A DNA stretch of 46,095 bases from Flavobacteriaceae bacterium (GTDB lineage: Bacteria > Bacteroidota > Bacteroidia > Flavobacteriales > Flavobacteriaceae): contig JAQWSN010000029.1 in assembly GCA_029243165.1 (NCBI GenBank), positions 1 to 46,095 of the forward strand, written 5' to 3'. Positions 26,549 through 45,313 of the stretch are shown piece after piece. Numbering within the stretch: the first letter of the stretch is position 1; each line of letters begins with the position of its first letter. The position numbers were made by a program, and so were the translations under genes. The notes under the pieces were generated by a model that was given only the letters and a program-made list of their open reading frames with translations, was not told where the DNA came from and did not search any database.

Positions 26549-27865
26549 ATGAGTCCATTTGTAGTCAAAGCGATCCAATTATTAATGAGTCTTTCCCTGC
26601 TCATTGTACTTCATGAATTGGGTCATTTTATCCCTGCTCGAATTTTTAAAACACGAGTTGAAAAATTCTTTTTATTTTTTGATGTAAAATTTGCCCTATT
26701 TCAAAAAAAGATAGGGGAAACAACTTATGGGATTGGATGGCTGCCTCTGGGTGGTTATGTCAAAATCTCCGGGATGATTGATGAGAGCATGGACACCGAA
26801 CAAATGCAACAGCCTGCACAACCCTGGGAGTTTCGATCGAAGCCAGCTTGGCAACGATTAATCATTATGCTGGGTGGAGTGACAGTTAATTTAATTTTAG
26901 GATTTTTGATCTACATGATGATACTCTTCGTATGGGGCAAAAATACCTTGCACACCAACGATCTTCCCTTAGGGATGGACCCTACGCCAATTGCTCAAGA
27001 AATCGGATTTCAGCCTGGAGACCAAATCATGACCGTTGATGGGAAATCTCTTGACAATGTCCTAGAAATCAACAAACTTTTATTTTTAAGATCAGTACAA
27101 ACCGTAACTGTTAAACACTTTGACGGTAAAACAGAACGTTTATCGATTCCTGAAAATTTTGGAAAGCAAATGTTTGAATCGGGTGAATTAATCCCTTTTT
27201 CTCCCATGTTCCCATCCGTTTTAGACAGTATTATTCCTAACTCTCCAGCAGCCAAAGCTGGGCTTTCCCAAAATGATAAAATTTTAGCTGTAAATGATGT
27301 CCCCATTCGGCATTGGACAGATTTTAAACGTGAAATGACTGACGAGTCTCGATTGTTGACCTTGGTTTATCAACGAGGCCAAAGTCGAGATACCGTTCAG
27401 TTAACAACTGCTGCTGACGGCACTTTGGGTGTGTACCCACAAGCTTTACCCATAAAATTTACCAATGAAAAACTGGGGATCGGTGCCAGTATCACAGAAG
27501 GATTTAGTTATGGCTATTGGACACTTTATGATTACGTAGCACAATTTCAATACATTTTCACCAAAAAAGGAGCCTCACAATTAGGCGGTTTTGGAGCCAT
27601 TGGAAATATGTTTCCTGACACTTGGAATTGGAAAGGTTTTTGGGCGAGCACAGCATTGATTTCCATTATTTTAGCTTTTATGAATGTTTTACCCATACCC
27701 GCATTGGATGGAGGGCATGTAATGTTTCTTGCTTATGAAATCATAACGGGTAGAAAACCCAATGATAAGTTTATGGAATACGCTCAAATGTTTGGGTTTT
27801 TTCTCTTACTAACTTTGGTTCTTTACGCCAACGGAAATGACCTTTACCGATTGGTCTTCAGCTAG
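26549..27865 (+). CDS. rseP: RIP metalloprotease RseP (site-2 protease)
   Basis: Intramembrane zinc protease that cuts anti-sigma factors and remnant signal peptides in the inner membrane. H-E-L-G-H is at residues 22-26 in the first helix, and the second metal-binding motif NVLPIPALDGGH is near residue 380. Two PDZ-like domains lie in the periplasmic part (about residues 145-290). Length of 438 residues is usual. A TACTTTTG element at 26522-26529 may be its -7 box. Its stop overlaps the end of the convergent LacI-type gene by eight bases. Confidence 0.96.
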   Translation: MSPFVVKAIQLLMSLSLLIVLHELGHFIPARIFKTRVEKFFLFFDVKFALFQKKIGETTYGIGWLPLGGYVKISGMIDESMDTEQMQQPAQPWEFRSKPAWQRLIIMLGGVTVNLILGFLIYMMILFVWGKNTLHTNDLPLGMDPTPIAQEIGFQPGDQIMTVDGKSLDNVLEINKLLFLRSVQTVTVKHFDGKTERLSIPENFGKQMFESGELIPFSPMFPSVLDSIIPNSPAAKAGLSQNDKILAVNDVPIRHWTDFKREMTDESRLLTLVYQRGQSRDTVQLTTAADGTLGVYPQALPIKFTNEKLGIGASITEGFSYGYWTLYDYVAQFQYIFTKKGASQLGGFGAIGNMFPDTWNWKGFWASTALISIILAFMNVLPIPALDGGHVMFLAYEIITGRKPNDKFMEYAQMFGFFLLLTLVLYANGNDLYRLVFS

Positions 27866-28904
27866 TCAAAGATTTTTGGACTTCTCTTGCTGTAGTATCT
27901 CTGACTATGAGTTTTGAGGGAAGTTTTAAAGTTCTATTTTCAGGTTCTAAGCCTTGTTTTTTAAGAGATTTCTCATTTAAAAAAGCTTCAAAAACCTTTA
28001 CTCCCATCGTTATTCCTGGCTGATCTATGGTGGTAATTGATGGAAAGTAAAATTGCGAAAACCTCCAGTTACTAAAACCAACAACGGCTAATTCTTCAGG
28101 GATTTTAATGTTGTGCTCCTTAAAAAGCTTTATTGCACCTGCCGCCGTTAAATCAGAAATTGCAAATAATCCATCAAATTCAATTCCTAAGTCCAATACT
28201 TTTTTAGCATTGTAGTATCCTTCGTTTCCATCAGCATTTTCACAAACAAAGACTCGACTCGTATCAAAAGGAATGTCATACTTTTCTAGTGCATCTCGAT
28301 ATCCCAAATAACGGTCTATTGAAATTTGAGGTGAGTAAGCACCTCTAAAATGGAGGATTTTTTTACATCCTTTTAAGATCAAGTGCTCGGTTGCATCAAA
28401 TGCAGCTTTTCGATCATCAATAATAATTTTTGGGCAATCAATTATTTTTTCAATTTTATCGAACATTACCAATAGCTTACCCTCTTTTTGCACTTCTTCT
28501 AAATGTTTGAACTCGTTTGTCTGTTGCGTCACAGCCATAAGAATAGCATCTACATTTTGATTTAAAAATTGGGAAATCAACTTTTTTTCTTCTTCAACAG
28601 ATCCCTGAGAACACCCTACTAAAACGTTGTATTTACTTTGCTGTGCACGTTTTAAAACTCCTGCTAAAACACTATTAAAAAAATCATGATTCATTTCAGG
28701 CAAAATAAGGGCTACCGTATTGGTCTCTTTAGTTCTCAGGTAGGAAGCATTTCGGTCGGGTTCAAAACCAACTTTTTTTACATATTGCAATACCCGCTCC
28801 CGTGTTTTAGAATTAACATCCGGGTAGGAGTTTAGAACCTTAGAAATTGTTGCTTTGGACAATTTCAGAGCAGCAGCAATATCGGATAGCTTTATCTTAC
28901 TCAA
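27858..28904 (-). CDS. LacI-family transcriptional regulator
   Basis: DNA-binding repressor or activator of 348 residues. The N-terminal helix-turn-helix is intact (SDIAAALKLSKATISKVLN at about residues 6-24) with the hinge region to residue 55. The periplasmic-binding-protein-like sugar-sensing domain spans about 60-335. It is divergent from susC, and a perfect palindrome with a central CG, the form typical of LacI-family operators, lies between them. The likely job is control of the susCD/VCBS locus in response to a sugar or sugar-like ligand, and autoregulation. The ligand is not known. Confidence 0.93.
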   Translation of the reverse strand: MSKIKLSDIAAALKLSKATISKVLNSYPDVNSKTRERVLQYVKKVGFEPDRNASYLRTKETNTVALILPEMNHDFFNSVLAGVLKRAQQSKYNVLVGCSQGSVEEEKKLISQFLNQNVDAILMAVTQQTNEFKHLEEVQKEGKLLVMFDKIEKIIDCPKIIIDDRKAAFDATEHLILKGCKKILHFRGAYSPQISIDRYLGYRDALEKYDIPFDTSRVFVCENADGNEGYYNAKKVLDLGIEFDGLFAISDLTAAGAIKLFKEHNIKIPEELAVVGFSNWRFSQFYFPSITTIDQPGITMGVKVFEAFLNEKSLKKQGLEPENRTLKLPSKLIVRDTTAREVQKSLTS

Positions 28905-28946
28905 AATTTAATTAATAGCTAATTTTAATTAATGTTTAAGTTTTTC

Positions 28947-28958
28947 GAAATCGATTTC
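28947..28958. promoter_or_regulatory. Candidate LacI-family operator
   Basis: GAAATCGATTTC is a perfect 12-bp palindrome centred on CG, the typical layout for LacI-family sites. It lies 43 bases before the regulator start and 109 bases before susC. It directly follows a possible -7 box of the regulator gene (TATTTTTG, 28969-28962 on the minus strand), so a bound protein would cover that gene's start of transcription. Confidence 0.6.
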
Positions 28959-29067
28959 TGTCAAAAATACAATACTAACTTTAAAAATTTAACATTTATT
29001 TAATATTTATCGTTAAAATTGAATACTTAATAATTTAGACTTAAAACAAATTAAATCCAAGAAAGTA

Positions 29068-32019
29068 ATGAAAAAAGAGTTTTTAAAGAAAATCTCATTG
29101 GTTTTTGCATTTTTTGTTACTGTTGGGATGTATGCCCAAACAGTCACAGGATTGGTTACCAGTGAAGACGGACCACTGCCAGGAGCAACGGTCCAAGTAA
29201 AAGGAACAGCAATCGGTGTGAGTACTGATTTTGATGGAAATTTTACCATTCAAGCAGATAACACTGATGTATTAATGGTTTCTTTTGTTGGATTCACCTC
29301 TCAGGAAATTGCAATAGGTGACCAAGATCAGATAACAGTTACCCTTGTCGCTGATAATGAACTGGAAGAAGTTATAGTTACGGGATACGGTTCGCAAAAG
29401 GAAAAAGAAATTACTTCTGCCGTTGTTAAGGTGACAGCTGAAGAATTTAACAAAGGACCTATTAATGATGCTACTCAACTGTTACAGGGTAAAGTAGCTG
29501 GATTAAGTATCTACAATAAGGGAGGAAATCCAAACGCTCCTGCAACGATACGTTTAAGAGGACTTTCTACTGTGGGTGCTAATGTTTCACCACTTGTTGT
29601 AGTTGACGGTGTTGTAGGTGCTTCTTTAGACAACGTAGATCCAAACGATATTGAATCAATTAACGTTCTGAAAGATGGATCGGCAGCTGCAATTTATGGT
29701 TCTCGAGGATCTTCTGGAGTAATTATTGTAACTACAAAAGGAGGAAAAAGCGGTGAAGTAAGTTTAACTTACAATGGACAACTTGCAAGCGCCTCAATTC
29801 TTAACAGGATTGATGTTATGAATCCTGATGAATTTAGAGCTGCTGGTGGTTCTGATTTAGGCGGTGAAACCGACTGGACAGAAGCAGTAACTCGAAATGC
29901 TATTTCTCAAATACACAATATCTCTGCTTCAGGAGGTTTTGGTAATACAACATTTCGTGTTTCAGCCAATGTGAGAGAAAATGAAGGAATTGTTATTAAT
30001 ACTGGTTTTGAACAATTTAACTCAAGAGCAAATATTTCTACAAGAGCTTTAGACGATAAATTAAAAGTAGATTTTAACGCTTCATTTACTCAAAGAAGTT
30101 CTAGTTTCGGTGAGTCACTAGTTTTAAAATATGCCACCTTGTTCAATCCTACTGCGCCTATTTACACAGAGGGTTCTGAATATTTCCCCGGAAATTCTGG
30201 TGATGCTATCGGAGGTTACTTTGAAACCTTTGGTCTTTTTGACAGTTACAACCCAGTATCGATTGCTGAACAACACGAACGTACAGGTGAAAGAACTGAA
30301 TTAAACTACAACTTATCTGTTGGTTATGACTTTTCGGACAACTTTGATGTTCAGTTTAGAGCTGCACGCCAAACCTCTTTAAACAACAATAGACGCTATG
30401 TTCCAGTAACAGCATTGTTGGCAGGAAACGCTTTGAGTCCAACTCGAAGAGGTCTTGCAGATTTTAATGATAACCGATACGAGTTTAAATTGTATGAAGC
30501 TTTCGCTAATTACAACATCACCTCAGACGGTTTTAATGTGAATCTTACGGGAGGATACTCTTTTCAACAAGATAATTTTACAAGTAAAGCATTTGGTCTA
30601 GGTGACTTCCCAGGAAACAATATGGACTACAGTTACAACATCGATGCCTCTGAAGATTTATTAAAAGCTGGATTTATTACAGCAAACAGTAGTAGAGGTC
30701 CAGACAACAAAATAATTGCTTTCTTCGGACGGGCAAACGTTGTTATTGATGATGCCATTTACGTTAACGCCTCTGTAAGAAGAGAAGGTTCAACAAAACT
30801 TGGAGACGGAAATAAGTGGGGAACATTCCCAGCATTTGGTATCGGAGCTGACTTAAATAAATACATTGGCACTGAGTACGATTTATTTAAAATCAGAGTA
30901 GGGTATGGTGAAACTGGATCTCTTCCTGGAGGAAGTGGTCTTTCACAAGTAGTTTACAACTTCAATTATGACTCAGGAGGTTCTGGAAATACATCTCAAG
31001 CACGAGCTGCAAACCCTGATTTAAAATGGGAATCAAAAGCTGAAACGAATATTGGATTGGATTTTGCTCAAGGAAAACTTAGTGGTAGTTTAGATGTGTA
31101 CACAAGAGATATTTCTGATTTTATCTTAGAGACACGAGTTGATGTTGCTACCTATGGATTTGACAGACGTTTCGAAAATTCAGGTAAAATTAATACTCAA
31201 GGGCTAGAATTGAATATTGGATATCAGTTTACTGACAATTATCAAACTAACATTAACCTTTCAACATACAATACCACGCTGGAAGAATATGTTATTGAGG
31301 ATGGTGACATTACTGGAAATCTTGGTTCACCAGGTCAAAACTCTACTAATATGATATTGATTAGACCAGGAGAAGCAATAGGTCAAATCTGGGCACCTCG
31401 TTTTGATGGTGTAAATGCTGATGGATCTAATAATTTTGGAGATGTAAATAACGATGGTCTTATTACCGCGAGTCAAGATAAATGGAATGATGAAAACGCT
31501 GACTTTATTTCAGCTGGTAATGGTATTCCAACCCTTGAATTAGGTTGGTCTAATAATGTTAATATAGGTAACTGGAGTGTAAATGCCTTTTTCAGAGGTG
31601 CATTTGGCCACAGTTTAGTGAATACGTTTAGAGCATTTTACGAGCCTCGTTTGGCGAGTCAGTCCTCTTACAATTTTGTAAACACAGAACTTGCTTTACC
31701 TGAATTGACTGTAGCTCAATTTAGTTCGCTGTATGTTGAGAAAGCTGACTTTTTCAAACTAGACAACTTAACAGTAGCTTACAACTTTAACCTCAGTGAA
31801 AGTTCGATTATTGAAGGAGCACAGATCTCTGCTAATGTTCAAAATGCATTTGTAATTACCAACTACACTGGTATTGATCCAGAACCAGCTCTTGTTGATG
31901 GTGGATTTAACGGTGCTGGATTTTCCCCAGCAGGAAACGTTTTAGCTCCAGGTATTGATAGAAGAGATAATTATTTTACTGCTAGGACAGTAACAATTGG
32001 ACTAAATATTAACTTTTAA
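29068..32019 (+). CDS. SusC/RagA-type TonB-linked outer-membrane transporter
   Basis: Energy-dependent importer of oligomeric nutrients. Signal peptide at residues 1-23 (GMYAQ). A carboxypeptidase-D-like regulatory domain (about 25-95) precedes a TonB-box-like segment EEVIVTGYGS at about 100-109. The plug domain (about 115-230) contains the SusC hallmarks LRGLSTVG and LKDGSAAAIYGSRGSSGVIIVTTKGG. A 22-strand barrel then runs to the terminal Phe at 983. It pairs with the SusD gene 11 bases downstream. Being under a LacI-type regulator suggests a carbohydrate-like ligand, but no glycoside hydrolase is near, so the substrate is open. Confidence 0.96.
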   Translation: MKKEFLKKISLVFAFFVTVGMYAQTVTGLVTSEDGPLPGATVQVKGTAIGVSTDFDGNFTIQADNTDVLMVSFVGFTSQEIAIGDQDQITVTLVADNELEEVIVTGYGSQKEKEITSAVVKVTAEEFNKGPINDATQLLQGKVAGLSIYNKGGNPNAPATIRLRGLSTVGANVSPLVVVDGVVGASLDNVDPNDIESINVLKDGSAAAIYGSRGSSGVIIVTTKGGKSGEVSLTYNGQLASASILNRIDVMNPDEFRAAGGSDLGGETDWTEAVTRNAISQIHNISASGGFGNTTFRVSANVRENEGIVINTGFEQFNSRANISTRALDDKLKVDFNASFTQRSSSFGESLVLKYATLFNPTAPIYTEGSEYFPGNSGDAIGGYFETFGLFDSYNPVSIAEQHERTGERTELNYNLSVGYDFSDNFDVQFRAARQTSLNNNRRYVPVTALLAGNALSPTRRGLADFNDNRYEFKLYEAFANYNITSDGFNVNLTGGYSFQQDNFTSKAFGLGDFPGNNMDYSYNIDASEDLLKAGFITANSSRGPDNKIIAFFGRANVVIDDAIYVNASVRREGSTKLGDGNKWGTFPAFGIGADLNKYIGTEYDLFKIRVGYGETGSLPGGSGLSQVVYNFNYDSGGSGNTSQARAANPDLKWESKAETNIGLDFAQGKLSGSLDVYTRDISDFILETRVDVATYGFDRRFENSGKINTQGLELNIGYQFTDNYQTNINLSTYNTTLEEYVIEDGDITGNLGSPGQNSTNMILIRPGEAIGQIWAPRFDGVNADGSNNFGDVNNDGLITASQDKWNDENADFISAGNGIPTLELGWSNNVNIGNWSVNAFFRGAFGHSLVNTFRAFYEPRLASQSSYNFVNTELALPELTVAQFSSLYVEKADFFKLDNLTVAYNFNLSESSIIEGAQISANVQNAFVITNYTGIDPEPALVDGGFNGAGFSPAGNVLAPGIDRRDNYFTARTVTIGLNINF

Positions 32020-32030
32020 TACATAAAACA

Positions 32031-33668
32031 ATGAAAAACTATAAAAAATCATTTTTAGGGATTCTATCTGTTTTTACTTTTGTAATTGCATGTACTGACT
32101 TAGAAGAAGAGTTAGTGAATGATTTTACGGAAAGTATAACTGTCCCAGGAGTTACTGTGGATGTAGCAGCAGTAGATGGTAGCTCTCAAGCAGTTCAAGA
32201 TCAAATTGGCGCTGCTTATGAAAAATTGAGAAATGGTACAGCTGGACACAATGACTATTGGTCAGTTCAGACTGTTTCCTCAGATGAGATGCAAGTCGGC
32301 CAAAAAGGTGGTGACTGGTATGATGGTGGTATCTGGTTAGATATGCACATGCATGTTTACACAGCTGCTAGTGGTCCATTGACCAACACCTACAATACCC
32401 AGTACAATGCTATTAGTGAGATAAATTTAAGTCTTGCTAAATCGGGATTAACTGCCAATGAAACGGCTCAACTTCGAGTTTTAAGAGCATTTTTCTATTG
32501 GAGATTAATGGATCTTTTTGGAAACGTAAAAATTGTTAAAACGGCAGGTTCGGATGCACCTCAATCTACTCGTGCTGAGGTTTTTGCTTTTGTTGAAAGT
32601 GAAATTCTTGCTGCGTTAGGTATTACTTCTGTTTCTGGATCAATGGATTTAACAAATAGTGATTTGAGTACAAGTCCAAAAAAATATAGGATTAATCAAT
32701 ATGCTGCTTTAGGTCTTCTTTCAAGAATTTATTTGAATGCTGAAGTTTATACTGGAACTGCACGTTATGCAGAAGCTGCAACAGCTGCAGGATGGGTAAT
32801 CGACAACGGTCCTTATCAATTAACAACTGAAGCAAACTCTTCAGTTAAGAATCTTGCTAAACGCCCAGGTGTTGCTACCGACCCTGATAACATCGTTGGT
32901 TATCCAGCAATGTTTGCACCAAATAACCAAGATAACGTTGAGACCATTTGGACAGTTGCTTTTGATGGCTTTAAAGGAGGAGGAATGAACTTTCACATGA
33001 TGGGACTTCATCAGCCTTCTCAATTTGCTTATAATTTTGATTCTCAACCATGGAATGGTTATCAAACACTTGAGGCAATGTACAGATCCTATGAATCTAA
33101 TGATGTCAGAGGGCAAAATAACTTCTTAGTTGGTCAACAGTATTCTTACTCTGGACTACCTTTAAGTGATTGGGCTGCTGATGACTTTAATGCTGATGGA
33201 ACGAAACACTTACCGCTAAATTACACTCCTGAAATTAATGAGTTATACCCTAATTCAATTCGTCAGAGTGGAGCACGGATGTACAAGTTTAGTCATGAGC
33301 AGTTCGAAAGAAATGAAAAGTCTAATGACTTTCCAATTATTCGTTTATCAGAAATGTATATGAATCGAGCGGAAGGCTTGGCTAGGGCTGCAGGTGACTG
33401 GTCCTTAGCTTTACCCGATGTTAATATTATTCGTGAAAGAGCAAAAGTAAGTGCTTACTCCTCAATTGATGCTACAGAATTTTTAGCAGAAAGAGGACGT
33501 GAATTTATTTTTGAATCTCACAGAAGAACAGATTTGATTCGTTTTGGTAAATATACTGACGCATGGTTTGAAAAATCAGCTTCAGAGGATTACAAAACAT
33601 TAATGCCCATACCCACAGATGCTATTACAGCAAGTGGTGGAACTCTTACACAGAATCCAGGGTACTAA
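32031..33668 (+). CDS. SusD/RagB-type nutrient-binding outer-membrane lipoprotein
   Basis: Surface lid of the SusC pore. Lipoprotein signal with Cys21 (FVIACTDLEEE); the acidic residues just after the cysteine resemble the Bacteroidetes surface-export signal. The TPR-like helical SusD core covers the rest (for example LRVLRAFFYWRLMDLFGNV at about residue 150, and the C-terminal FLAERGREFIFESHRRTDLIRFGKY). It ends with the family's usual TQNPGY. At 545 residues it is typical. A strong terminator follows directly. Confidence 0.95.
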   Translation: MKNYKKSFLGILSVFTFVIACTDLEEELVNDFTESITVPGVTVDVAAVDGSSQAVQDQIGAAYEKLRNGTAGHNDYWSVQTVSSDEMQVGQKGGDWYDGGIWLDMHMHVYTAASGPLTNTYNTQYNAISEINLSLAKSGLTANETAQLRVLRAFFYWRLMDLFGNVKIVKTAGSDAPQSTRAEVFAFVESEILAALGITSVSGSMDLTNSDLSTSPKKYRINQYAALGLLSRIYLNAEVYTGTARYAEAATAAGWVIDNGPYQLTTEANSSVKNLAKRPGVATDPDNIVGYPAMFAPNNQDNVETIWTVAFDGFKGGGMNFHMMGLHQPSQFAYNFDSQPWNGYQTLEAMYRSYESNDVRGQNNFLVGQQYSYSGLPLSDWAADDFNADGTKHLPLNYTPEINELYPNSIRQSGARMYKFSHEQFERNEKSNDFPIIRLSEMYMNRAEGLARAAGDWSLALPDVNIIRERAKVSAYSSIDATEFLAERGREFIFESHRRTDLIRFGKYTDAWFEKSASEDYKTLMPIPTDAITASGGTLTQNPGY

Positions 33669-33686
33669 TACCTTTCATTTTTAGTT

Positions 33687-33727
33687 AAAAATGGGTCAAT
33701 CAAAAAATCGGTTGACCCATTTTTTTT
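33687..33727 (+). terminator. Strong terminator after susD
   Basis: Perfect 13-bp stem: 33687-33699 (AAAAATGGGTCAA) with 33712-33724, a 12-base loop, and an eight-T run (33720-33727). It stands only 12 bases before the next gene, leaving no room for a promoter, so the downstream genes should depend on read-through. Confidence 0.88.
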
Positions 33728-33739
33728 ATTTTTATCCCT

Positions 33740-36700: not shown

Positions 36701-36994
36701 CAATATGCCCCTGTATTTGCTTTGGCTCAACAGAATCAGGAAAAAACTCTAAAAGGAACTTTTTATCTTGGAGGAAATCAATATTTAGTCAAACCCCAAT
36801 TCGGGCGCTACGATGCTTCCAAAGGATGGTCTTTAAAATATCGGATTCAAGGAACTAAAATTGAATTCGAAACACCTGAAATATTGGGTGTGAATGGACA
36901 AATAAGACAGTTGGAAATTGTAAATTTGAAGCGCAATCCACAGCTGTTAATTGGGATTAATAACCAGGCAGTAGAACTGCTTGAATTGGATTAA
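33740..36994 (+). CDS. Giant FG-GAP/VCBS-ASPIC lipoprotein, paralog 1
   Basis: A 1084-residue lipoprotein with lipidated Cys17 (LLIFSC). Seven Asp-rich calcium-type motifs (D-x-N-x-D-G-x-x-D form, e.g. DINNDGLLD, DADLDGDLD, DLDNDGDLD) lie between residues 63 and 475, suggesting a seven-bladed propeller. An ASPIC/UnbV domain follows at about 515-590, with RGFQSS and VLWPNG. A further six such motifs lie at about 643-900, then a tail with QLPYLKKKV-KYEDYA and an LPAEIQ-like element. Some calcium sites have lost residues (DLNNDLNSD, DFDKNGTEE). This is the family often named CRTAC1 or VCBS-repeat protein; its function in bacteria is unproven. It is probably at the cell surface and may work with SusC/D. 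Confidence 0.9.
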   Translation: MKSIEFFWWIPLLIFSCTSSKSNLFEMREDLEIGFENNLTYTQDFNPYTYRNFYNGAGVALGDINNDGLLDIYMTGNLVDNKLFLNKGNWIFEDITEKAGVACKGVWSTGVTFADVNSDGLLDIYVCKSGKPEGPNRHNELFINQGDLTFTEDSKSYGLDVLGLSVHAAFFDADLDGDLDCYVLNNSLRSVGGYDLIKNQRNTPDPNGEGNKFFENRNGVFIDVSTEKGIYTSAIGFGLGITLSDFNNDRLPDLYISNDFFERDYFYLNTKNGFKEALEEQFQSISMGAMGADAADLNNDLNSDLFVTEMLPANLKRQKLKAKYDSWDKYTLMDKKGYFHQYPRNSLQRNTGKNQFLEISRFSGVAATEWSWASLLFDMNNDGLNDIFVANGIFKDLLDRDYLAYMANETQVQMLLENREDAIEKLIDIMPSKAVPNSAFENKGDFQFEDQTKAWGLNLPSFSNGNAYGDLDNDGDLDLIVNNVNMPSFFYENKTDTLNARSFTLQLKSKTKNTFAVGAKAIIYYDHGKRQMKEQFPSRGFQSSVANTLHFGLGNSQQVDSLQVLWPNGDQEMRYNLKSNTRHVLLQKKEAISNAIAPKEKIQRQVNESRPLAFKHKENNWSEFNRERLIPQMNHNNGPALATVDLNEDGITDFYIGGGKNQTGALFISNKSGFDKIQSPFEKSNRSEDTDALFFDADADGDMDLIITSGGKSFSKFSSDLDDRYYENTGNHTFVKKENAFSFETHFSTSAVGSGDFNQDGKTDLIVGERFNLQTYGKKASLHLLINQGEGKFIEKSVSDFDQTGMITDLTVSDINQDGWPDVIACGEWMPIQIWINTKESFSNKTKEYGLSETSGLWNTLLVKDINQDGIPDILAGNLGENTFFNPGMRLYLNDFDKNGTEEQIICQGINEDYYPIVDKDELISQLPYLKKKVVKYEDYAKARMQDLFTPNQLEESEISELNLLKSSLFLSDPQTGYHSHDLPAEIQYAPVFALAQQNQEKTLKGTFYLGGNQYLVKPQFGRYDASKGWSLKYRIQGTKIEFETPEILGVNGQIRQLEIVNLKRNPQLLIGINNQAVELLELD

Positions 36995-37011
36995 AATGAA
37001 GAATAAGAATC

Positions 37012-37584
37012 ATGAGTAAAACACTTTTCAAACTTTCGGTATTGTTTCTGATCACTACAAGCTGTTCTTTTTCAGAATACGATACACTGTTAAAAACAGA
37101 ACTCAAAAAAAATCAAAAAGTAGATTCTGTATTTTTTAATCTTCGCTTAGGAGAATCAAAAGAAATCTACCACAAAAAAAGCTGGGATTTGAACAACAGC
37201 AGACAGGTAGTGCAGGGGCGATCCTATTTTTACATGAAAAAAATTTTTTCAGATTCAAAAACTGAAAAGAAAAGAAACGATTTTGCACTTGAATTTAGTG
37301 GAAGATTCAACTCCGAAAAAAAAATGAAGATGTTGGATGTAAAATTTTATCATTTGCTTTGGACTCCCTGGAACGAAATGTATCAAGCACCTAAGCTTCT
37401 TCCTAGAATTCTAGATTCCTTGGAACTTTGGTTTCCAGGAAACCCTTTTTTAGAAGTCAAAACCGGTAATGACTCAATCCCCAGCATCCATGTTAAGATA
37501 GATGGAGACCGAAGGTTTCGTGTCTTTGTGGAAAATTCACAAGATGTAGCCGTCAAAATAGATGATCTAAATGAAGACAATTAA
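37012..37584 (+). CDS. Small lipoprotein of unknown family in VCBS operon
   Basis: A 190-residue protein with a lipoprotein signal and Cys18 (LITTSC). The mature part is charged and rich in beta-type segments (for example SWDLNNSRQ, FALEFSGRF, MLDVKFYHLLW, FLEVKTGND, IHVKIDGDRRF). I recognise no domain or catalytic motif. It starts 17 bases after the first giant VCBS gene and overlaps the start of the second by 14 bases, so it is translationally tied to them. An accessory surface or periplasmic partner of the VCBS proteins is a reasonable guess but not shown by sequence. Confidence 0.75.
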   Translation: MSKTLFKLSVLFLITTSCSFSEYDTLLKTELKKNQKVDSVFFNLRLGESKEIYHKKSWDLNNSRQVVQGRSYFYMKKIFSDSKTEKKRNDFALEFSGRFNSEKKMKMLDVKFYHLLWTPWNEMYQAPKLLPRILDSLELWFPGNPFLEVKTGNDSIPSIHVKIDGDRRFRVFVENSQDVAVKIDDLNEDN

Positions 37585-40500
37585 ACCCCAATTTATTTGG
37601 AAATGCAGTTCTTTATTGGTGCTGATCTTAAGTATTCTCTCTTGTGGAAAAAACAAGTCAGAGAAACTGTTTCATTTAATTTCTTCTGAAAAAAGCGGAA
37701 TTACCTTTTCAAATGATTTAACCTATTCCGATGATTTTAATGTCTACAAATACCGAAACTTTTACAATGGTGGAGGTATTGCTGTTGGAGATGTCAATAA
37801 CGACGGTCTGGTTGATTTGTATTTTACAGCCAATCAAAAATCCAATGAACTTTACCTTAATCAAGGGGATTTTAAATTTAACCGTGTAACGGAAACTGCT
37901 GGTGTAGGAGGAAAAAAAGCTTGGGCTACAGGGGTTACTATGGTTGACATTAATGCCGACGGATGGCTTGATATTTACGTTTGTAATTCGGGCGATTTGG
38001 AGGGAGACAACAAACAAAACGAACTCTTTATCAATAATCAAGATGGGACTTTTGAAGAAAATGCTGCTAGCTACGGTCTAGACGACAAAGGATTTTCAAC
38101 CCATTCGGTCTTCTTTGATTATGACAAAGACGGTGATCTAGACGTTTACCTTTTAAACAATTCTTATCAAGCTATAGGAAGTTTCGACCTAAGAAGAGAA
38201 GAGCGACCAAAACGGGATGCTTTGGGAGGAGATAAGTTAATGCGAAACGACAATGGCATTTTTGTGGATGTCAGTGAAAAAGCAGGAATTTATGGAAGTG
38301 TTATCGGATTTGGATTGGGAGTGACTGTTGGGGATGTAAATGGAGATCAATGGGAAGATATTTTTATTTCTAATGATTTTTTCGAACGAGATTACCTCTA
38401 CATCAACCAACAAAACGGGAGTTTTAAAGAGGTTTTAACCCAACAAATGAAATCAATCAGCGGTGCTTCTATGGGAGCGGATATGGCCGATATTGATAAT
38501 GATGGAGACAATGATATTTTTGTTACAGAAATGCTTCCCTCCGATTATGAACGACTAAAATCTGTAACTACATTTGAAGACTGGAACCGATATCGATACA
38601 ATGTAAAAAACTCCTACCACCACCAGTTTACTAGAAATATGCTTCATCGTAACAACGCTAATGAAAGTTTTAGTGAAGTGGGAAGAATGGCAGGAGTAGA
38701 AGCTACAGATTGGAGCTGGGGTGCGCTTTTTTTTGATATGAATAACGACGGTCTTAAAGATCTTTTTGTATCCAACGGAATCTACAAAGACCTAACTGAC
38801 CAAGACTACCTCCAATACATTTCGAGTGAAGAAGTTGTGAATTCCATTGTTCAAGAAAATAAGGTGAATTACAAAAAACTCATTGATATCATTCCTTCTG
38901 AAAAGGTGCCCAATAGTGGCTTTTTAAACTTAGGACAAACTCGTTTCAAGAGAACAGCTTCTTTAGGCTTAGATACCCCGAGTTTTTCAAACGGATCTGC
39001 CTATGCAGATCTTGATAATGATGGTGACTTAGATTTGATTGTAAACAACGTCAACATGGAGTCTTTTATTTACCGAAATAATTTGTCTAAAGAAACCGCA
39101 AATTACCTCCAAATTCAACTCAAGGGTGAAGGAAAAAACACCTTTGCTCTTGGTACTCAAGTAAGTGTTTTCACAGAAAAGGATACACTGTATTTTGAAC
39201 AGCAACCCGCAAGAGGATTTCAATCCAGTGTGGATCCAAGAATTACAATCGGCTTGGGAAAAAGTGCAAAAGCTTCGGTAGAAGTTTTATGGCCATCAGG
39301 TAAAAAGAGCCTGTTAAACGAAGTTGTACAAAATCAAACCCTTGTTTTAGAGGAAAAAAAAGCTCAGTTGATTGAAAATATTCCTTCAAAAAATAAAATT
39401 CCTCTTTTTACAAAAGCGAGCGAAAACGTACTCGTCTACAAACACAAAGAAGCTAATTTTGTGGATTTCCATCGCGAGCGACTCACCTATCACATGTGCA
39501 GCGGAGAAGGCCCTCTTAGCAGTGTAGGCGACCTCAACGGTGACGGATTAGAGGATTTGGTAATTCCTGGACCGAAAAACGAATCCACTACGGTATTCAT
39601 CCAAAATTCTCAAGGAAACTTTTCAGCCCTAAGGCAAGACGTTTTTAGTAAGCAAGCACGTGCTGAACATACGGAATCCTTGCTATTCGATGCAGATGGT
39701 GATGGCGACCTTGATTTGTATCTTGCCTCAGGCAGCGTTGAATTGAGTGCTTTTTCTGATTTTCTTTACGACCGTTTGTTTTTCAACCAAGGGGATGGAA
39801 CCTTTAGCATGTCCTCACAAAAATTTCCTTCAGAAGGAACGAGAATGAATACAGGAGTGGTCAAATCCGCAGATTTTGATCAGGACGGTGATCAAGATTT
39901 ATTCGTAGGAGAACGAACTAAAATTGGTGCTTATGGGCAAGCGGGTTCGGGATATCTTTTAGAGAACAACGGTCAGGGACAATTTGAAGAAGTGAGCTCA
40001 GAAAAGGCTCCTTTTTTAAATCAATTTGGAATGATAACCGATGCTGTTTTTAATGATTGGGATCAAGACGGTGATCCGGATCTTATCGTAGCAGGAGAAT
40101 TTATGGGATTGGAAATTTTAGAAAATGTGGGCGGTAAGTTCATCCAAAAAAAAGATCCTCTTTTGTCATCATACAAAGGTTGGTGGAATACCCTTCACGC
40201 GGTTGATGTGGATCAAGATGGGGATATGGATCTCATTGGAGGAAACCACGGGATCAATTCCAGATTCAACGCATCTGAGTCACACCCCATCAAACTTTAC
40301 CTCAACGATTTTGATCGAAACGGTTCTGTCGAAGGTATCCTAACCTTCTCCAACAAGGAATCCAGAGACCTCCCTTATGCACTGCGCCATACTTTAATTG
40401 ATCAAATTAAAAGTTTAAAGAAAAAATTTCCTGATTACCAGTCCTTTAAAAATGCTGATATTAATCAGATTTTTAGTCCAAAAGAAATGGAGGGGGTTCA

Positions 40501-40870
40501 AGTATTGAAAGCCACTACGTTGGAATCCATGGTATTTCTCAATGAAGGTGGGTTTAATTTTAGTGCACATGCACTTCCTCAAGAAGCGCAACTTGCTCCA
40601 GTGTATGCTATTGAAGACGGAGATTTTGATCGCGATGGTGATTTGGATCTTGTCCTCGGTGGAAATCTTTATCGGGCCAAGCCTGAAGTTGGAATTTACG
40701 ATGCCAGCCACGGGGTGTACTTGGAAAATAATGAGGGAACATACATGGCTAGTTCCCGAGCAAATGACTTTTATGTTAAAGGGGAGATTCGAGACATCAA
40801 GCGTATCGATAATCAGGTTTTTGTTTTTCGCTCAAATGATAGCATAGCCGTTTTAAAAACTACACGATGA
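37571..40870 (+). CDS. Giant FG-GAP/VCBS-ASPIC lipoprotein, paralog 2
   Basis: Paralog of the gene at 33740, 1099 residues, lipidated Cys25 (SILSC). Seven calcium-type motifs span about residues 74-487 (DVNNDGLVD, DINADGWLD, DYDKDGDLD, DVNGDQWED, DIDNDGDND, DMNNDGLKD, DLDNDGDLD). The ASPIC/UnbV domain is at about 526-595 (RGFQSS, VLWPSG). Then come the shared linker (YKHKEANFVDFHRERL) and a second motif set at about 653-1025. It has one motif more than its relatives, a late DFDRDGDLD near residue 1017. Overlaps the small lipoprotein gene by 14 bases and the next paralog by 4, pointing to translational coupling. Confidence 0.9.
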   Translation: MKTIKPQFIWKCSSLLVLILSILSCGKNKSEKLFHLISSEKSGITFSNDLTYSDDFNVYKYRNFYNGGGIAVGDVNNDGLVDLYFTANQKSNELYLNQGDFKFNRVTETAGVGGKKAWATGVTMVDINADGWLDIYVCNSGDLEGDNKQNELFINNQDGTFEENAASYGLDDKGFSTHSVFFDYDKDGDLDVYLLNNSYQAIGSFDLRREERPKRDALGGDKLMRNDNGIFVDVSEKAGIYGSVIGFGLGVTVGDVNGDQWEDIFISNDFFERDYLYINQQNGSFKEVLTQQMKSISGASMGADMADIDNDGDNDIFVTEMLPSDYERLKSVTTFEDWNRYRYNVKNSYHHQFTRNMLHRNNANESFSEVGRMAGVEATDWSWGALFFDMNNDGLKDLFVSNGIYKDLTDQDYLQYISSEEVVNSIVQENKVNYKKLIDIIPSEKVPNSGFLNLGQTRFKRTASLGLDTPSFSNGSAYADLDNDGDLDLIVNNVNMESFIYRNNLSKETANYLQIQLKGEGKNTFALGTQVSVFTEKDTLYFEQQPARGFQSSVDPRITIGLGKSAKASVEVLWPSGKKSLLNEVVQNQTLVLEEKKAQLIENIPSKNKIPLFTKASENVLVYKHKEANFVDFHRERLTYHMCSGEGPLSSVGDLNGDGLEDLVIPGPKNESTTVFIQNSQGNFSALRQDVFSKQARAEHTESLLFDADGDGDLDLYLASGSVELSAFSDFLYDRLFFNQGDGTFSMSSQKFPSEGTRMNTGVVKSADFDQDGDQDLFVGERTKIGAYGQAGSGYLLENNGQGQFEEVSSEKAPFLNQFGMITDAVFNDWDQDGDPDLIVAGEFMGLEILENVGGKFIQKKDPLLSSYKGWWNTLHAVDVDQDGDMDLIGGNHGINSRFNASESHPIKLYLNDFDRNGSVEGILTFSNKESRDLPYALRHTLIDQIKSLKKKFPDYQSFKNADINQIFSPKEMEGVQVLKATTLESMVFLNEGGFNFSAHALPQEAQLAPVYAIEDGDFDRDGDLDLVLGGNLYRAKPEVGIYDASHGVYLENNEGTYMASSRANDFYVKGEIRDIKRIDNQVFVFRSNDSIAVLKTTR

Positions 40871-43800
40871 TATTAAAAAAAGTATTCGTTGGAATACTGT
40901 TGATTGGGTTCATTGGCTGCCAAACCAAGGGGGAGCAGAAAATTGAAAATGCCCATTTCAACATGGCCGTTCGAACTTCGGAACAAACGGGAATTCGATT
41001 TGAAAACACGCTAAAAGATCAATCAGATCTCAACATTATTGAGTATTTGTATTATTACAACGGAGGTGGCGTAGCCGTAGGAGATATCAATAATGACGGC
41101 TTGGAAGACCTCTTTTTTTCTGCCAATCAGTTGCCAGATAAATTGTATTTAAATTTGGGAGAACTCAAGTTTCGTGATGTTTCAGTGGAAGCTGGAATCG
41201 ATCAAACCAACTCTTGGTCCACAGGAGTCAGCATGCAAGATGTAAACAATGATGGTCTCCTAGATATTTACGTTTGTAAAGTTGGAACCTTTAATTCACT
41301 AGACGCACGTAACCAGCTCTACCTCAACAATGGAGATTTGACTTTTACAGAATCTGCTCAAAAACTGGGGGTTGATTTTTCAGGGTTTTCAACACAAGCA
41401 GCCTTTTTAGATTATGATAAAGATGGTGATTTGGATTTTTATTTATTGAATCACAACATTCATTCGGTCAGAAGCTACGGTACAGTAAAAAACCGAAAAG
41501 ACCAAGATACTCTAGCAGGAGATCGTTTTTATGAAAACAAAATTAATGAGATTGGGGTTTTTGTTGACGTTACCGAGGCATCACAAATTTACAACAGCCC
41601 GTTGGGGTATGGACTCGCTATTGGGGTTTCAGATTTTAATCAGGACGGCTGGCCCGATTTGTACATTGGAAATGACTTTCATGAAAACGACTACCTCTAT
41701 CTTAACAATCAAAACAACAGCTTTACCGAATCCATAGCAACATCCATGAATCATACTTCCCGTTTTACCATGGGTGTAGATGTTGCTGATCTGAATAATG
41801 ATGGAAAACTAGATCTTTTCACAACAGACATGCTTCCTTTTGATCCTAAAATCTTATTAAAATCGGGTGGGGAAGATTCCGATAAAGTGGCTAGAATAAA
41901 ACAAAAATATGGTTTTAATAGCCAGTATGCACGTAATCACTTACAGATCAATCAAGGAAATAACACTTATGCTGATCTTGCTCTAATGACTGAAACTTAC
42001 GCTTCGGACTGGAGCTGGGGAGTCTTGCTGGCAGATTTTGATAACGACGGCTGGAATGATATTTTTATTCCTAATGGAATTGTAAAAAGGCCCAATGACT
42101 TGGATTACATAAAGTACTTGAGTAATAGTAATTTCAGTCAATTTGAAAGTTCTAAAAAGGAGCAGCTACGGGTCAAGATAATTGATGAGATGCCAACGCT
42201 ACAGATTCCCAATCTATTGATTAAAAATAAAGGAAATTTGGACTTTGAGTTGATTGGAAACTCCCCAATCGGGTCTCCTGGATTTACTACAGGAGCAGCC
42301 TACAGCGACCTAGACAACGACGGGGACTTGGATCTTATTTTTAACAATATCAACGCTGCTGCCCAAATCTTAGAAAATCAACATGACCCAAAGCGTGGGA
42401 TTCAAATTGAATTAAAACCCACGAAAGAATACCCTCAATTGTTAGGAACAAAAGTGCGCTATTTTTCAGGGGGGCAAAGTTGGATCAAAGAATATCAGAT
42501 TTTGAGAGGATTTCAATCCACATCATCTCATAAGCTCAATTTGTCTTTACCGGATGGGAAAACCTTGGATTCTATTCAGGTTTTTTGGCCTCATGGACGC
42601 ACCGCTTTAATTGGAAGTCCTCAGAAAAATCTTTTGATTTTAAGCCCATCTTCTTCTGACCCTTTAACTAAAAATAAAAAAATAGATTCTCGATTTGAGC
42701 TTAAAAAATTTCCTTTTCGACACATTGAAAACACCTATTATGACGAGGATAAAGAGGCATTGATCCCCGAACGGCTTTCGCAAGAAGGACCGGCTTGGGC
42801 TTATGCAGACTTTGATCAGGATGGGATCAAAGATTTTTTTATTGGAGGAGCCAAAGAACAGCCTGCCCAAATTTTGTTTGGAACAGCTAAGGGAACTTTT
42901 TACAATAAATTTATCTCTGATTTTGACCGTGATAGAGGATTTGAGGACGTTGCTGCGGCTACCCTTGATATTGATCGTGATGGAGATCTAGACCTTTACA
43001 TCGGTAGTGGCGGAAATCAAGAAGTCTCACCCAACCCAAGTCTTGAAGATCGAATTTATGTCAACGACGGACAGGGTATTTTTAAACGGGCCCCCATCCC
43101 CTTACCCCAAACCAATACGGGTTGTGTTGCAATAGCAGATTTTGATAATGATCAATTTCCAGATTATTTTATTGGCAGTAGAAATATTACAGGCGCTTAT
43201 GGTCTAACTCCCAATAGCTTTATTGTCCAAAATGAAAACGGAATCGCCATGAAAATTTTGGACCGTAAACAATGGGGCATGATTAGCGATGCTAAATGGG
43301 CCGATCTTAACGGAGATCGCTTTTTAGATTTAATTTTGGTTGGTGACTGGATGCCAATTACAATCTTGATCAATAATCAAGGCAAATCCTTTGAAAATAA
43401 AACACTAGAATTCGGTTTGGGCAATACACAGGGCCTTTGGAATACAGTTGAACTTTTTGATTTTGATCAAAACGGCTTTCTGGATATTATTGCTGGAAAT
43501 TCAGGAACCAATTCCAAATGGCATCCTAGTGAGACGCGCCCTGTAAAATTGTATCTGGATGATTTTGATGAAAATCAACAAGCTGACCCTATTGTATTTT
43601 ATCCCTACGGAGATCGAAATATTCCTTTTGCTGGAAAAGATAAGTTAGCGAGCCAACTGCCTGTGATAAAAAAACGCTTTACTCGATATGAAGATTTTGC
43701 AGAAGTATCAGACATTAAAACTTTACTTGGAAAAAGTGAGGAAGATATCTTACAAATCAAACAGCTAAACGAACTGCGCTCCATGGTTTTTTTAAACCAA

Positions 43801-44118
43801 GACGGGAATCGTTTTAGTTCTCATCCACTCCCCGATGTAGCACAACAAAGTTCCATTGAAGGATTTAGTATTGACCCTACAAATGGTGCTATTGCTTTTG
43901 TAGGGAATTCTTCGGCTTGGGTGGTAGAATTAGGCAGTAGTTTAGCCAATCCTGGTGGGATCCTCCATGGATTCGATCCCAAAACAAAACAATACGAATC
44001 TTACGAGGCTTTTCCTTTACCCCTAGGAACCGAAGGGAAACACATTCAACAAATTCCCAATGGGGATTACGTAGTTATTGTAAATAATGGAGACTCATAC
44101 CAAATAACGGTAAAATAG
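40867..44118 (+). CDS. Giant FG-GAP/VCBS-ASPIC lipoprotein, paralog 3
   Basis: Third paralog, 1083 residues, lipidated Cys18 (LIGFIGC). Seven motifs lie at about residues 72-488 (DINNDGLED through DLDNDGDLD) and the ASPIC/UnbV domain at about 525-595 (RGFQST, VFWPHG). Six weaker motifs follow at about 647-905, the last degraded (DFDENQQAD). The tail shares ASQLPVIKKR-F-RYEDFA with paralog 1 but lacks the extra calcium motif of paralog 2; instead it ends in a Gly/Asn-rich stretch. Its ATG overlaps the previous stop (ATGA). Last gene of the run; no clear terminator follows. Confidence 0.9.
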   Translation: MILKKVFVGILLIGFIGCQTKGEQKIENAHFNMAVRTSEQTGIRFENTLKDQSDLNIIEYLYYYNGGGVAVGDINNDGLEDLFFSANQLPDKLYLNLGELKFRDVSVEAGIDQTNSWSTGVSMQDVNNDGLLDIYVCKVGTFNSLDARNQLYLNNGDLTFTESAQKLGVDFSGFSTQAAFLDYDKDGDLDFYLLNHNIHSVRSYGTVKNRKDQDTLAGDRFYENKINEIGVFVDVTEASQIYNSPLGYGLAIGVSDFNQDGWPDLYIGNDFHENDYLYLNNQNNSFTESIATSMNHTSRFTMGVDVADLNNDGKLDLFTTDMLPFDPKILLKSGGEDSDKVARIKQKYGFNSQYARNHLQINQGNNTYADLALMTETYASDWSWGVLLADFDNDGWNDIFIPNGIVKRPNDLDYIKYLSNSNFSQFESSKKEQLRVKIIDEMPTLQIPNLLIKNKGNLDFELIGNSPIGSPGFTTGAAYSDLDNDGDLDLIFNNINAAAQILENQHDPKRGIQIELKPTKEYPQLLGTKVRYFSGGQSWIKEYQILRGFQSTSSHKLNLSLPDGKTLDSIQVFWPHGRTALIGSPQKNLLILSPSSSDPLTKNKKIDSRFELKKFPFRHIENTYYDEDKEALIPERLSQEGPAWAYADFDQDGIKDFFIGGAKEQPAQILFGTAKGTFYNKFISDFDRDRGFEDVAAATLDIDRDGDLDLYIGSGGNQEVSPNPSLEDRIYVNDGQGIFKRAPIPLPQTNTGCVAIADFDNDQFPDYFIGSRNITGAYGLTPNSFIVQNENGIAMKILDRKQWGMISDAKWADLNGDRFLDLILVGDWMPITILINNQGKSFENKTLEFGLGNTQGLWNTVELFDFDQNGFLDIIAGNSGTNSKWHPSETRPVKLYLDDFDENQQADPIVFYPYGDRNIPFAGKDKLASQLPVIKKRFTRYEDFAEVSDIKTLLGKSEEDILQIKQLNELRSMVFLNQDGNRFSSHPLPDVAQQSSIEGFSIDPTNGAIAFVGNSSAWVVELGSSLANPGGILHGFDPKTKQYESYEAFPLPLGTEGKHIQQIPNGDYVVIVNNGDSYQITVK

Positions 44119-44129
44119 AATCCTTCTTT

Positions 44130-44525
44130 TTATTGCTGGGTGGTGATTTGCACTACCCCTCCCGATCCAGCAAAGCCGTAATTCGCAATTTCAGTAGCTT
44201 TTTTTAAAAGTTGGATTTTAGTGATTTCGACGGGATTGACAGAAAAAACCGTTCTCGAAAAAGTACCTACTTGAGTACCGTTTACAACAAAAAGAACTTC
44301 CTTTGGAGTGTTGACTCCTGCAATACCTCGAATAAAAACTTGGGCATTTTGTCCTTGCCCACGAGTTACTATTCCCGGATACATCCGCAAACGATCAAGT
44401 AAAGATACATTAACTAATGTTTCCTCTTTGGTAGGTCTCTGCTTTGGGTCATTCGATGCAACCTTAGTAGTGCCACAACATATTAATAAAAATCCCAGTA
44501 ATAAAGTTAAAAATGTTTTTTTCAT
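44130..44525 (-). CDS. Stand-alone TonB-receptor plug-domain lipoprotein
   Basis: Only 131 residues: a lipoprotein signal with Cys16/Cys17 (FLLICC) and then an isolated plug domain. The features match SusC-type plugs: LLDRLRMYPGI, the V-F-I-R-G-I strand, PLFVVNG-like LFVVNGTQVG, and IQLLKKATEIANYGFAGSGGVVQITT. There is no barrel and no frameshift remnant downstream, so this is a complete small gene, not a fragment. It is convergent with the last VCBS gene. How a plug without a barrel works is unknown; it may bind TonB, ligand or an outer-membrane partner. Confidence 0.85.
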   Translation of the reverse strand: MKKTFLTLLLGFLLICCGTTKVASNDPKQRPTKEETLVNVSLLDRLRMYPGIVTRGQGQNAQVFIRGIAGVNTPKEVLFVVNGTQVGTFSRTVFSVNPVEITKIQLLKKATEIANYGFAGSGGVVQITTQQ

Positions 44526-44634
44526 CCGTTTGTTTAATAGATTAAAAGTACTAATTAAAACTCTTTTTAGAATTTTATTTCACTAGCAGTGAAGTCAAGT
44601 GATTTAATTCAAAAATGCTGGAATGGATATCCTC

Positions 44635-44642
44635 TAATTTTG
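44635..44642 (+). promoter_or_regulatory. Candidate -7 element of RidA-like gene
   Basis: TAATTTTG fits TAnnTTTG, 28 bases before the start codon. No clear -33 element at normal spacing. Confidence 0.35.
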
Positions 44643-44669
44643 TAAATTGTATTAAATCAAATTATTTGT

Positions 44670-45221: not shown

Positions 45222-45283
45222 GCCTTTTTTCGTTGGATCCATTTTAAAGTTGCAACCCTGCTACAGATTACAGTAAAATATTG

Positions 45284-45313
45284 TTGTTTTTATCATATTT
45301 GATTTTATATTTG
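45284..45313 (+). promoter_or_regulatory. Candidate promoter for tRNA-Asn
   Basis: TTG (45284-45286), a 19-base spacer and TATATTTG (45306-45313) match the Bacteroidetes -33/-7 pattern. Transcription would start near 45320, about 118 bases before the mature tRNA. Confidence 0.55.

Follow-up and report, generated by a model that had tools for sequence, protein, structure and literature searches.

The stretch of DNA analysed here, hereafter referred to as the window, is 46,095 nucleotides long and represents one whole contig (JAQWSN010000029.1) of a Flavobacteriaceae bacterium genome (GCA_029243165.1; 2.09 Mb, 34 contigs, 94% complete). It contains a SusC-SusD uptake locus extended by three very large propeller lipoproteins (A1, A2 and A3) and a small lipoprotein (LP190), and the gene set SusC-SusD-A1-LP190-A2-A3 is a conserved and widespread operon. 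On the minus strand, a LacI-family regulator (27858-28904, first codon TTG) matches LacI and Peripla_BP_1 above the curated Pfam cut-off and is divergent from susC. An operator-like palindrome, TCGAAATCGATTTCTG, with a perfect 12-bp core (28947-28958), is located between the two genes at 28945-28960. The operon itself occupies the plus strand. SusC, a TonB-dependent outer-membrane transporter (29068-32019), scores 571.5 bits with TIGR04056 (cut-off 368.25), and the SusD lid lipoprotein placed directly after it (32031-33668), which also retrieved SusD entries in a PDB search, scores 92.2 bits with PF07980 (cut-off 23.1), as expected of a SusCD uptake locus. A terminator-like hairpin of 15 pairs (33687-33724), extending with its T-rich tail over 33687-33734 on the plus strand, separates SusD from A1. 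The long FG-GAP/ASPIC lipoproteins A1 (33740-36994, 1084 aa), A2 (37571-40870, 1099 aa) and A3 (40867-44118, 1083 aa) all match FG-GAP_3 and UnbV_ASPIC above the curated cut-offs. The 190-aa lipoprotein LP190 (37012-37584), inserted between A1 and A2, matched no Pfam or NCBIfam family and was used as the marker of the cassette. The genes are tightly packed, with gaps of 11 nt (SusC-SusD), 71 nt (SusD-A1) and 17 nt (A1-LP190) and overlaps of 14 nt (LP190/A2) and 4 nt (A2/A3). A lipobox-like cysteine is present in A1, LP190, A2, A3 and SusD, where it is followed by the acidic stretch TDLEEE. The first-pass annotation, which had listed a sugar-type regulator, SusCD, three propeller lipoproteins of about 1,090 aa and an unknown lipoprotein, was thus confirmed at these coordinates, with the families above their cut-offs.

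Bacteroidota import glycans mainly through SusCD systems, and a classical polysaccharide utilization locus (PUL) includes a hydrolase, lyase or sulfatase. No glycoside hydrolase (GH), polysaccharide lyase or sulfatase family was matched among the 30 window proteins scanned with Pfam, out of 38 window open reading frames (ORFs) of at least 100 aa; the remaining eight are not separate genes of the SusCD-propeller block. No glycoside hydrolase or lyase model of Pfam or NCBIfam matched A1-A3 either. The earlier claim of a locus devoid of any hydrolase therefore holds for the window copy. It does not extend to the locus in general: GH13, GH97, GH65, GH37 or XylA/XylB genes adjoin the cassettes of relatives, so that the absence of hydrolases describes this copy and not the kind of locus.

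Conservation of the cassette and of the SusCD-propeller association

Named genomes were scanned with seven LP190 rows and 220 encoding stretches were retrieved, the best 80 of which are the basis of all LP190-locus counts. LP190 is flanked directly on both sides by same-strand ASPIC ORFs in all 80 loci, and exactly two ASPIC ORFs follow it in 69. SusD immediately precedes the first ASPIC gene in 68 loci; ten of the other 12 stop at a contig edge, and the last two display an ORF of 229 aa (L131) or 554 aa (L178) between SusD and the first ASPIC gene. The loci belong to Flavobacteriaceae, Saprospiraceae and Roseivirga/Marivirga-type bacteria, with records that include Lutibacter, Winogradskyella, Cellulophaga, Arenibacter, Maribacter, Polaribacter, Algibacter, Roseivirga, Marivirga and Saprospiraceae. 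Lutibacter flavus, Cellulophaga tyrosinoxydans and strains of Winogradskyella, Maribacter and Arenibacter are named marine carriers. In an even draw of 149 family genomes, LP190 was found in 18, always as a single copy; among these, its flanks were checked in four (G000, G016, G027 and G035) and agree by coordinates in a fifth (G022). The window proteins are related to those of the LP190 loci by a median identity of 53.5% for SusC (65 loci) and 54.2% for SusD (69 loci), calculated on best local matches. The system is not peculiar to this window: the LP190 cassette recurs across several bacterial families.

A FastTree phylogeny of 78 long ASPIC proteins placed the A1, A2 and A3 positions in separate clades of 7, 6 and 6 rows, each with a local Shimodaira-Hasegawa-like value of 100%. 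ASPIC triple sets devoid of LP190 (L079, L096 and L065) join them in a larger clade of 32 rows (95%). A recent tandem triplication of A1-A3 is ruled out by these separate positional clades. The cassette ASPIC genes are split into several ORF pieces in Maribacter litopenaei (L169) and in a Cellulophaga metagenome-assembled genome (L141), reflecting either decay or sequencing errors. A PAP2 lipoprotein, missing from the window copy, is the gene following the last ASPIC in 40 of the 80 LP190 loci and may be a further component of the system. PAP2 lipoproteins likewise follow an ASPIC gene at L008:7912-9264, in the window's own genome, and at L010:4121-5464, the former weakly matching the N-terminal domain of vanadium chloroperoxidase.

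The association of long ASPIC proteins with SusCD is not restricted to LP190 loci. In the own genome, seven ASPIC matches are distributed in four clusters, every one of which starts directly behind a SusC-SusD pair (the SusD of the cluster on contig C4 being of the Pfam SusD-like_2 type), and four of the eight SusC proteins above cut-off are accompanied by such a cluster. All but one of the seven ASPIC proteins belong to the long class; the exception (569 aa, L008) is located farther down one of these loci, after the PAP2 lipoprotein. Among 60 relatives, ASPIC genes occur in 32 and PF07980-type SusD in 50. The neighbourhood survey proposed in the first-pass annotation was performed on 80 regions: 17 from the same genus, three others, 40 long-class regions from the family (38) or order (2), and 20 controls consisting of ASPIC matches of about 460-820 aa (18) or 1,340 aa (2). 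The 40 family/order regions were hand-picked from the matches listed, one to four clusters per genome, and are not a random sample. In the same genus, 14 of the 17 regions have a same-strand SusD directly upstream, and the remaining three (L045, L048 and L059) are cut by a contig end; the ASPIC gene of L046 is in two pieces. Two of the three extra regions (L060 and L061) have ASPIC directly behind SusD, and the third (L062), a 3.8-kb contig, is without SusD. In the family/order regions, SusD directly precedes the long ASPIC gene in 24 of 40 and is separated from it by two to four genes in five more (L069, L071, L083, L092 and L096), i.e. a same-strand SusD at most four genes upstream in 29 of 40. 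No SusD was found in the 20 control regions (0.8 expected by density; Fisher test of 29/40 versus 0/20, p = 2e-8); as the control genomes are mostly SusD-poor, this result indicates an absent association and not avoidance. PF07980-type SusD alone accounts for 23 of the 40 regions, against 3.8 expected from PF07980 density. A divergent SusD subtype, left out of the density estimate, was confirmed by SusD-like Pfam models in 10 of 10 proteins scanned, including six of those behind the count of 29. A chance neighbourhood is ruled out by the 23 regions observed against 3.8 expected (29 with the divergent subtype), and the association is conserved in the long class. Two order-level ASPIC proteins of about 1,050 aa (L101 and L102), with no SusCD nearby and ORFs of 334 and 660 aa on their flanks, represent another recurring setting.

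Regulatory elements and neighbouring sugar genes

A divergent LacI gene adjoins SusC in 37 of the 56 LP190 loci that possess SusD before the cassette, a complete SusC and a neighbouring ORF. The 39 LacI-SusC gaps available (the window and 38 LP190 loci) share the palindrome CGAAANCGNTTTCG, which is exact in 27 gaps and displays one mismatch in seven, two in three and three in two. Shuffling of the gaps (200 rounds) produced on average 0.0 exact occurrences and 0.02 with at most one mismatch, versus 34 of the 39 real gaps with at most one mismatch; the letters of CGAAANCGNTTTCG were fitted to these same gaps, and the excess over shuffles far exceeds the effect of fitting. The window palindrome, CGAAATCGATTTCT, has one mismatch to CGAAANCGNTTTCG, and its 12-bp core has a single exact occurrence in the own genome. 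A LacI helix-turn-helix with a sugar-binding domain and a conserved palindrome before the target gene are the sequence features of a LacI-regulated sugar operon, and the locus is therefore assigned to the sugar type. The strict palindrome is present in 11 of 14 genomes and absent from the three that belong to the window's genus. Its excess is clear in G027, G060 and G061 alone (25 sites versus 5 in the control), and single sites elsewhere may be due to chance. In four genomes (L223, L230, L237 and L238), it lies either at the start of a pckA-like gene or immediately upstream of it; the gene was identified as phosphoenolpyruvate carboxykinase by family search in L237 and by eye in the other three. 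This position is a hint of a Cra-like LacI regulator.

A palindrome-based search for a hydrolase regulon in the own genome gave ten further places with one mismatch, against 26 for the reversed control. Nine of these were examined in their gene context and the tenth (C11:6360) by coordinate. The places near a GH13 gene (L249) and in L246 fall inside ORFs, hence no regulon is claimed. In L249 (2029-6376), the GH13 gene is followed by ORFs resembling, by eye, an alkanesulfonate-monooxygenase-like protein and a sodium/solute symporter, a gene set for which use of a sulfo-sugar is possible.

The hairpin behind SusD has the longest stem of 16 terminator-like sites detected in 27700-45300; as shuffled sequences give 12.1 sites on average, it is the only one that stands out. 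Three loci (L123, L125 and L146), which are apparently stretches of genomes sampled already (G004 and G027), were excluded from the junction and N-terminus counts. A hairpin with a T tail is present in 97 of the 109 junctions where ASPIC directly follows SusD (20-30 nt of flank included). When gaps of 40-250 nt are considered, it is found in 81 of 91 SusD-ASPIC gaps, whereas the other same-strand gaps in these loci contain one in 35 of 223 cases. The other cassette junctions gave 0/116, 0/84, 0/84, 4/105 and 0/52, these gaps being mostly too short to hold a hairpin. The stem ends 15 nt before A1 in the window (median 27 nt; at most 40 nt in 57 of 85 cases). Bacteroidota promoters differ from the sigma-70 consensus, and a sigma-70-type scan returned 41 sites versus 49.9 in shuffles. 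Since a stem so close to A1 leaves little room for a separate promoter, the arrangement suggests attenuated read-through from SusD into A1.

Sugar-cleaving and sugar-kinase genes recur beside the cassette. Family searches identified a xylose isomerase above cut-off (L143; L076 has a weak TIM-barrel match), FGGY kinases (L076 and L143), GH13 (L093 and L134), GH97 (L167 and L187), GH65 with a trehalase under the NCBIfam cut-offs (L185), a trehalase (L188), a GH100-like protein (L079), a 6-phosphogluconate dehydrogenase with a kinase domain (L087, a locus of two ASPIC genes without LP190), a 3-keto-disaccharide hydrolase (L172), a major facilitator superfamily protein weakly matching sucrose symporters (L129) and sodium/solute symporters (L076, L100 and L168); a xylose isomerase and kinase of L096 were judged by eye from their N-termini. 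The palindrome itself precedes GH32, PfkB kinase and sugar porter genes in G027 (L222), sucrose phosphorylase, trehalase, kojibiose hydrolase and PfkB kinase genes in Lutibacter flavus (L228), and a GMC oxidoreductase with a gluconate-dehydrogenase-like subunit and a 3-keto-disaccharide hydrolase in L234. Taken as a whole, these genes point to small, mostly alpha-glucosidic sugars as lineage-dependent substrates. The window also encodes a GMC oxidoreductase (2580-4259, plus strand), 63-65% identical to GMC genes under the palindrome (L227 and L234) or behind the cassette (L147). Nine 3-keto-disaccharide hydrolase domains are found in the own genome (contigs C31, C1, C4, C15, C21 and C28), three of them near the SusCD pair of C31 (L011).

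Structure and possible role of the propeller lipoproteins

Structure prediction, also proposed at the outset, gave a confident AlphaFold2 model of A1 (73 rows; predicted local distance difference test score, pLDDT, 91.1; predicted template-modelling score, pTM, 0.92). Its best PDB match, by both sequence profile (E 2e-30) and fold, is murine CRTAC1 (9etn), with a template-modelling (TM) score of 0.70 on the target and 0.37 on the query. PF07593 and FG-GAP_3 are above cut-offs in all three proteins, which places them in the ASPIC/UnbV (CRTAC1) family, the CRTAC1-like fold being documented for A1 alone. Of the twelve D-x-[DN]-x-[DN]-x3-D loops of A1, seven precede the ASPIC domain and five follow it; from this distribution and the strand pattern, it would consist of two propellers, probably binding calcium in their loops. 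Double propellers such as DDB1 reach a TM score of at most 0.31 to the A1 model among the matches listed, a general likeness, and a viral structure library gave 52 matches at E <=0.001, the best TM score on the target being 0.50 among the matches listed, again a general propeller likeness. The best LP190 model has a pLDDT of 84.7 (seven sequences) and the other four 67.1 to 54.9; it had no PDB match at E <=0.001, and the sequence search only returned matches at E 0.36.

The explanation that we favour, slightly more probable than not in our estimation, is a LacI-controlled uptake operon for a small sugar in which A1-LP190-A2-A3 forms with SusCD a non-catalytic assembly that holds or hands over the substrate. 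Sucrose, trehalose or another alpha-glucosidic di- or oligosaccharide would be the most likely substrate. LacI would occupy the palindrome at 28945-28960 and be released when the sugar is present. SusC and SusD would be produced in excess, the hairpin behind SusD letting only part of the transcripts pass into A1-LP190-A2-A3. A1-A3 and LP190 would all be outer-membrane lipoproteins; the first three, which could not replace one another, would each be a double propeller rich in calcium-type loops, and LP190 would be their small partner. The assembly could face either side of the membrane and would hold the gene position of SusE/SusF-type proteins, to which it is unrelated.

A number of observations weigh against this explanation. 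The palindrome is shared, with 41 sites counted over 14 genomes versus 24 for the reversed control, and three of its eight sites in G027 (L224, L225 and L226), as well as those of L231, L235, L236 and L240, adjoin genes that are not obviously related to sugars; the same palindrome may also be bound by other LacI paralogues. A search of the own genome did not reveal a convincing palindrome at any sugar gene. The sugar genes vary by lineage, gluconate/6-phosphogluconate-dehydrogenase-type genes and the 3-keto-disaccharide hydrolase being among them, and are missing from the stretch examined around some cassettes, so that the mixed gene list is a real weakness of the substrate proposal. The hairpin could also mean that A1-A3 are transcribed separately. 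Finally, 11 of the 40 family/order regions (L064, L065, L068, L072, L073, L074, L078, L080, L094, L101 and L102) lack a nearby same-strand SusD.

The membrane face is addressed by the N-termini. An acidic stretch after the lipid cysteine is a surface-export mark in Bacteroidota, and at least two acidic residues at positions +2 to +6 are found in 98% of 113 SusD proteins, compared with 40% of 264 long ASPIC proteins, 34% of 47 PAP2 lipoproteins, 26% of 80 LP190 and, for the remaining lipoproteins encoded in the loci, 24% of 169. When the LP190 loci are broken down by position, the proportion is 31% of 68 for A1, 54% of 68 for A2 and 37% of 65 for A3. The earlier suggestion that the propellers handle a substrate imported by SusCD, as binders or as undiscovered enzymes, is partly supported: the SusCD-propeller association is conserved, but the missing SusD-like acidic N-terminus speaks against a plain surface-binder role.

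A surface version of the favoured explanation, with which it overlaps, places A1-A3 outside the cell on or around SusCD, where they would catch substrate in the manner of surface glycan-binding proteins (SGBPs) in utilisomes or of BtuG on BtuB. We regard it as plausible, at somewhat below even likelihood. Like SGBP genes, the propeller genes directly follow susD in the window and in the 24 family/order regions mentioned above, and a lipobox-like cysteine occurs in 264 of the 286 long ASPIC proteins. A K(D/E)2 stretch is found in 7% of long ASPIC proteins versus 1% of other lipoproteins, and the A2 position is the one closest to an acidic N-terminus. The BtuG propeller lipoprotein caps BtuB (PMC10404256), and further lipoproteins are described as assembling on SusCD (PMC7618045). 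On the other side, the lid place is already occupied by SusD, and the long ASPIC proteins do not share the acidic N-terminus of SusD, which weakens this version, least for A2, and opens an inner-face alternative. SusCD might then release the sugar inward to the three double propellers and LP190, anchored in the inner leaflet of the outer membrane, which would pass it to a transporter or enzyme as a periplasm-facing counterpart of the utilisome. This proposal is a tentative one, rather unlikely as it stands; we know of no SusCD system with a receiver on the inner face, no search having been made on this point.

Next comes the case in which the sugar assignment is wrong, SusCD importing another class of molecule and LacI reporting general sugar status. 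The palindromes at pckA, as for a Cra-like global regulator, and an amidase-like gene (under the model cut-offs) after the cassette in L193 would agree with it; the recurrence of sugar-cleaving and sugar-kinase genes beside the cassette in several genera makes it unlikely. We give still less credit to the propellers being undiscovered carbohydrate-active enzymes, one or more of which would replace the hydrolase missing from the 30 proteins scanned. Residues outside the calcium loops (N345, W370, S371, W372, N391, N437 and Q926) are invariant in the 73-row alignment, but they may be structural. The nearest solved relative is CRTAC1, and the long ASPIC genes stay behind SusD in an accessory-like manner even where GH3, GH26, GH31, NAGLU or sulfatase genes follow. 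Attachment or calcium-holding proteins travelling passively with susCD, a view recalling the role in adhesion suggested for repeat proteins, FG-GAP among them, in single-cell genomes of marine flavobacteria (PMC2668756), are the least probable, as a passenger role is hard to reconcile with a strict gene order over several families, short or overlapping junctions and three positional clades.

Relation to known systems and minor features

The locus is best described as a SusCD uptake locus of a variant type whose partners belong to a new class; it is real, widespread and apparently undescribed, and the propeller function is a proposed one. It shares with the SusCD loci and utilisomes of Bacteroides (levan, dextran) the SusC barrel, the SusD lid and further co-encoded outer-membrane lipoproteins; unlike these, its extra lipoproteins are FG-GAP/ASPIC double propellers and not known SGBPs or glycoside hydrolases, their N-terminus is not SusD-like, and the window copy contains no enzyme. 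In BtuB-BtuG vitamin B12 uptake, a propeller lipoprotein likewise partners a TonB-dependent transporter, but BtuG itself takes the lid place, whereas SusD is present here together with three long proteins. CRTAC1 and other ASPIC-UnbV proteins have FG-GAP repeats followed by an ASPIC domain, as here, but not the additional FG-GAP repeats (a putative second propeller) after that domain, the lipoprotein nature or the SusCD operon. In marine Flavobacteriia of the North Sea, PULs for alpha-glucan and trehalose-like substrates (PMC6298971) combine SusCD with GH13/GH65 and trehalose-type substrates, a context similar to that of the present cassettes.

Searches of the open-access literature without supplements for FG-GAP/VCBS/ASPIC proteins together with SusCD or polysaccharide utilization loci yielded no description of this type of locus, which is not proof of absence in print; the main text of PMC6298971 was not among the papers naming both FG-GAP and SusD, supplements being outside the search. 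The ASPIC/UnbV searches led to a paper on human CRTAC1. An FG-GAP gene has also been noted beside hydrazine-synthase-like genes (PMC12758564). Very large propeller lipoproteins in the accessory position of a conserved SusCD class would be partners of a new kind for a transporter that is already well studied, and would place the frequent FG-GAP/ASPIC annotations of these bacteria in a functional setting for the first time. With LP190 and the palindrome as markers, the cassette is easy to find and to test.

Downstream of A3, the window contains a lone TonB-plug fragment, a RidA-like lipoprotein and a tRNA-Asn. The first of these (44130-44525, minus strand) is a plug-domain protein without barrel, convergent with A3. 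ORFs of 131-163 aa tagged as SusC-like are found at the equivalent place in L052, L123 (apparently the same contig as L052), L124 and L126.

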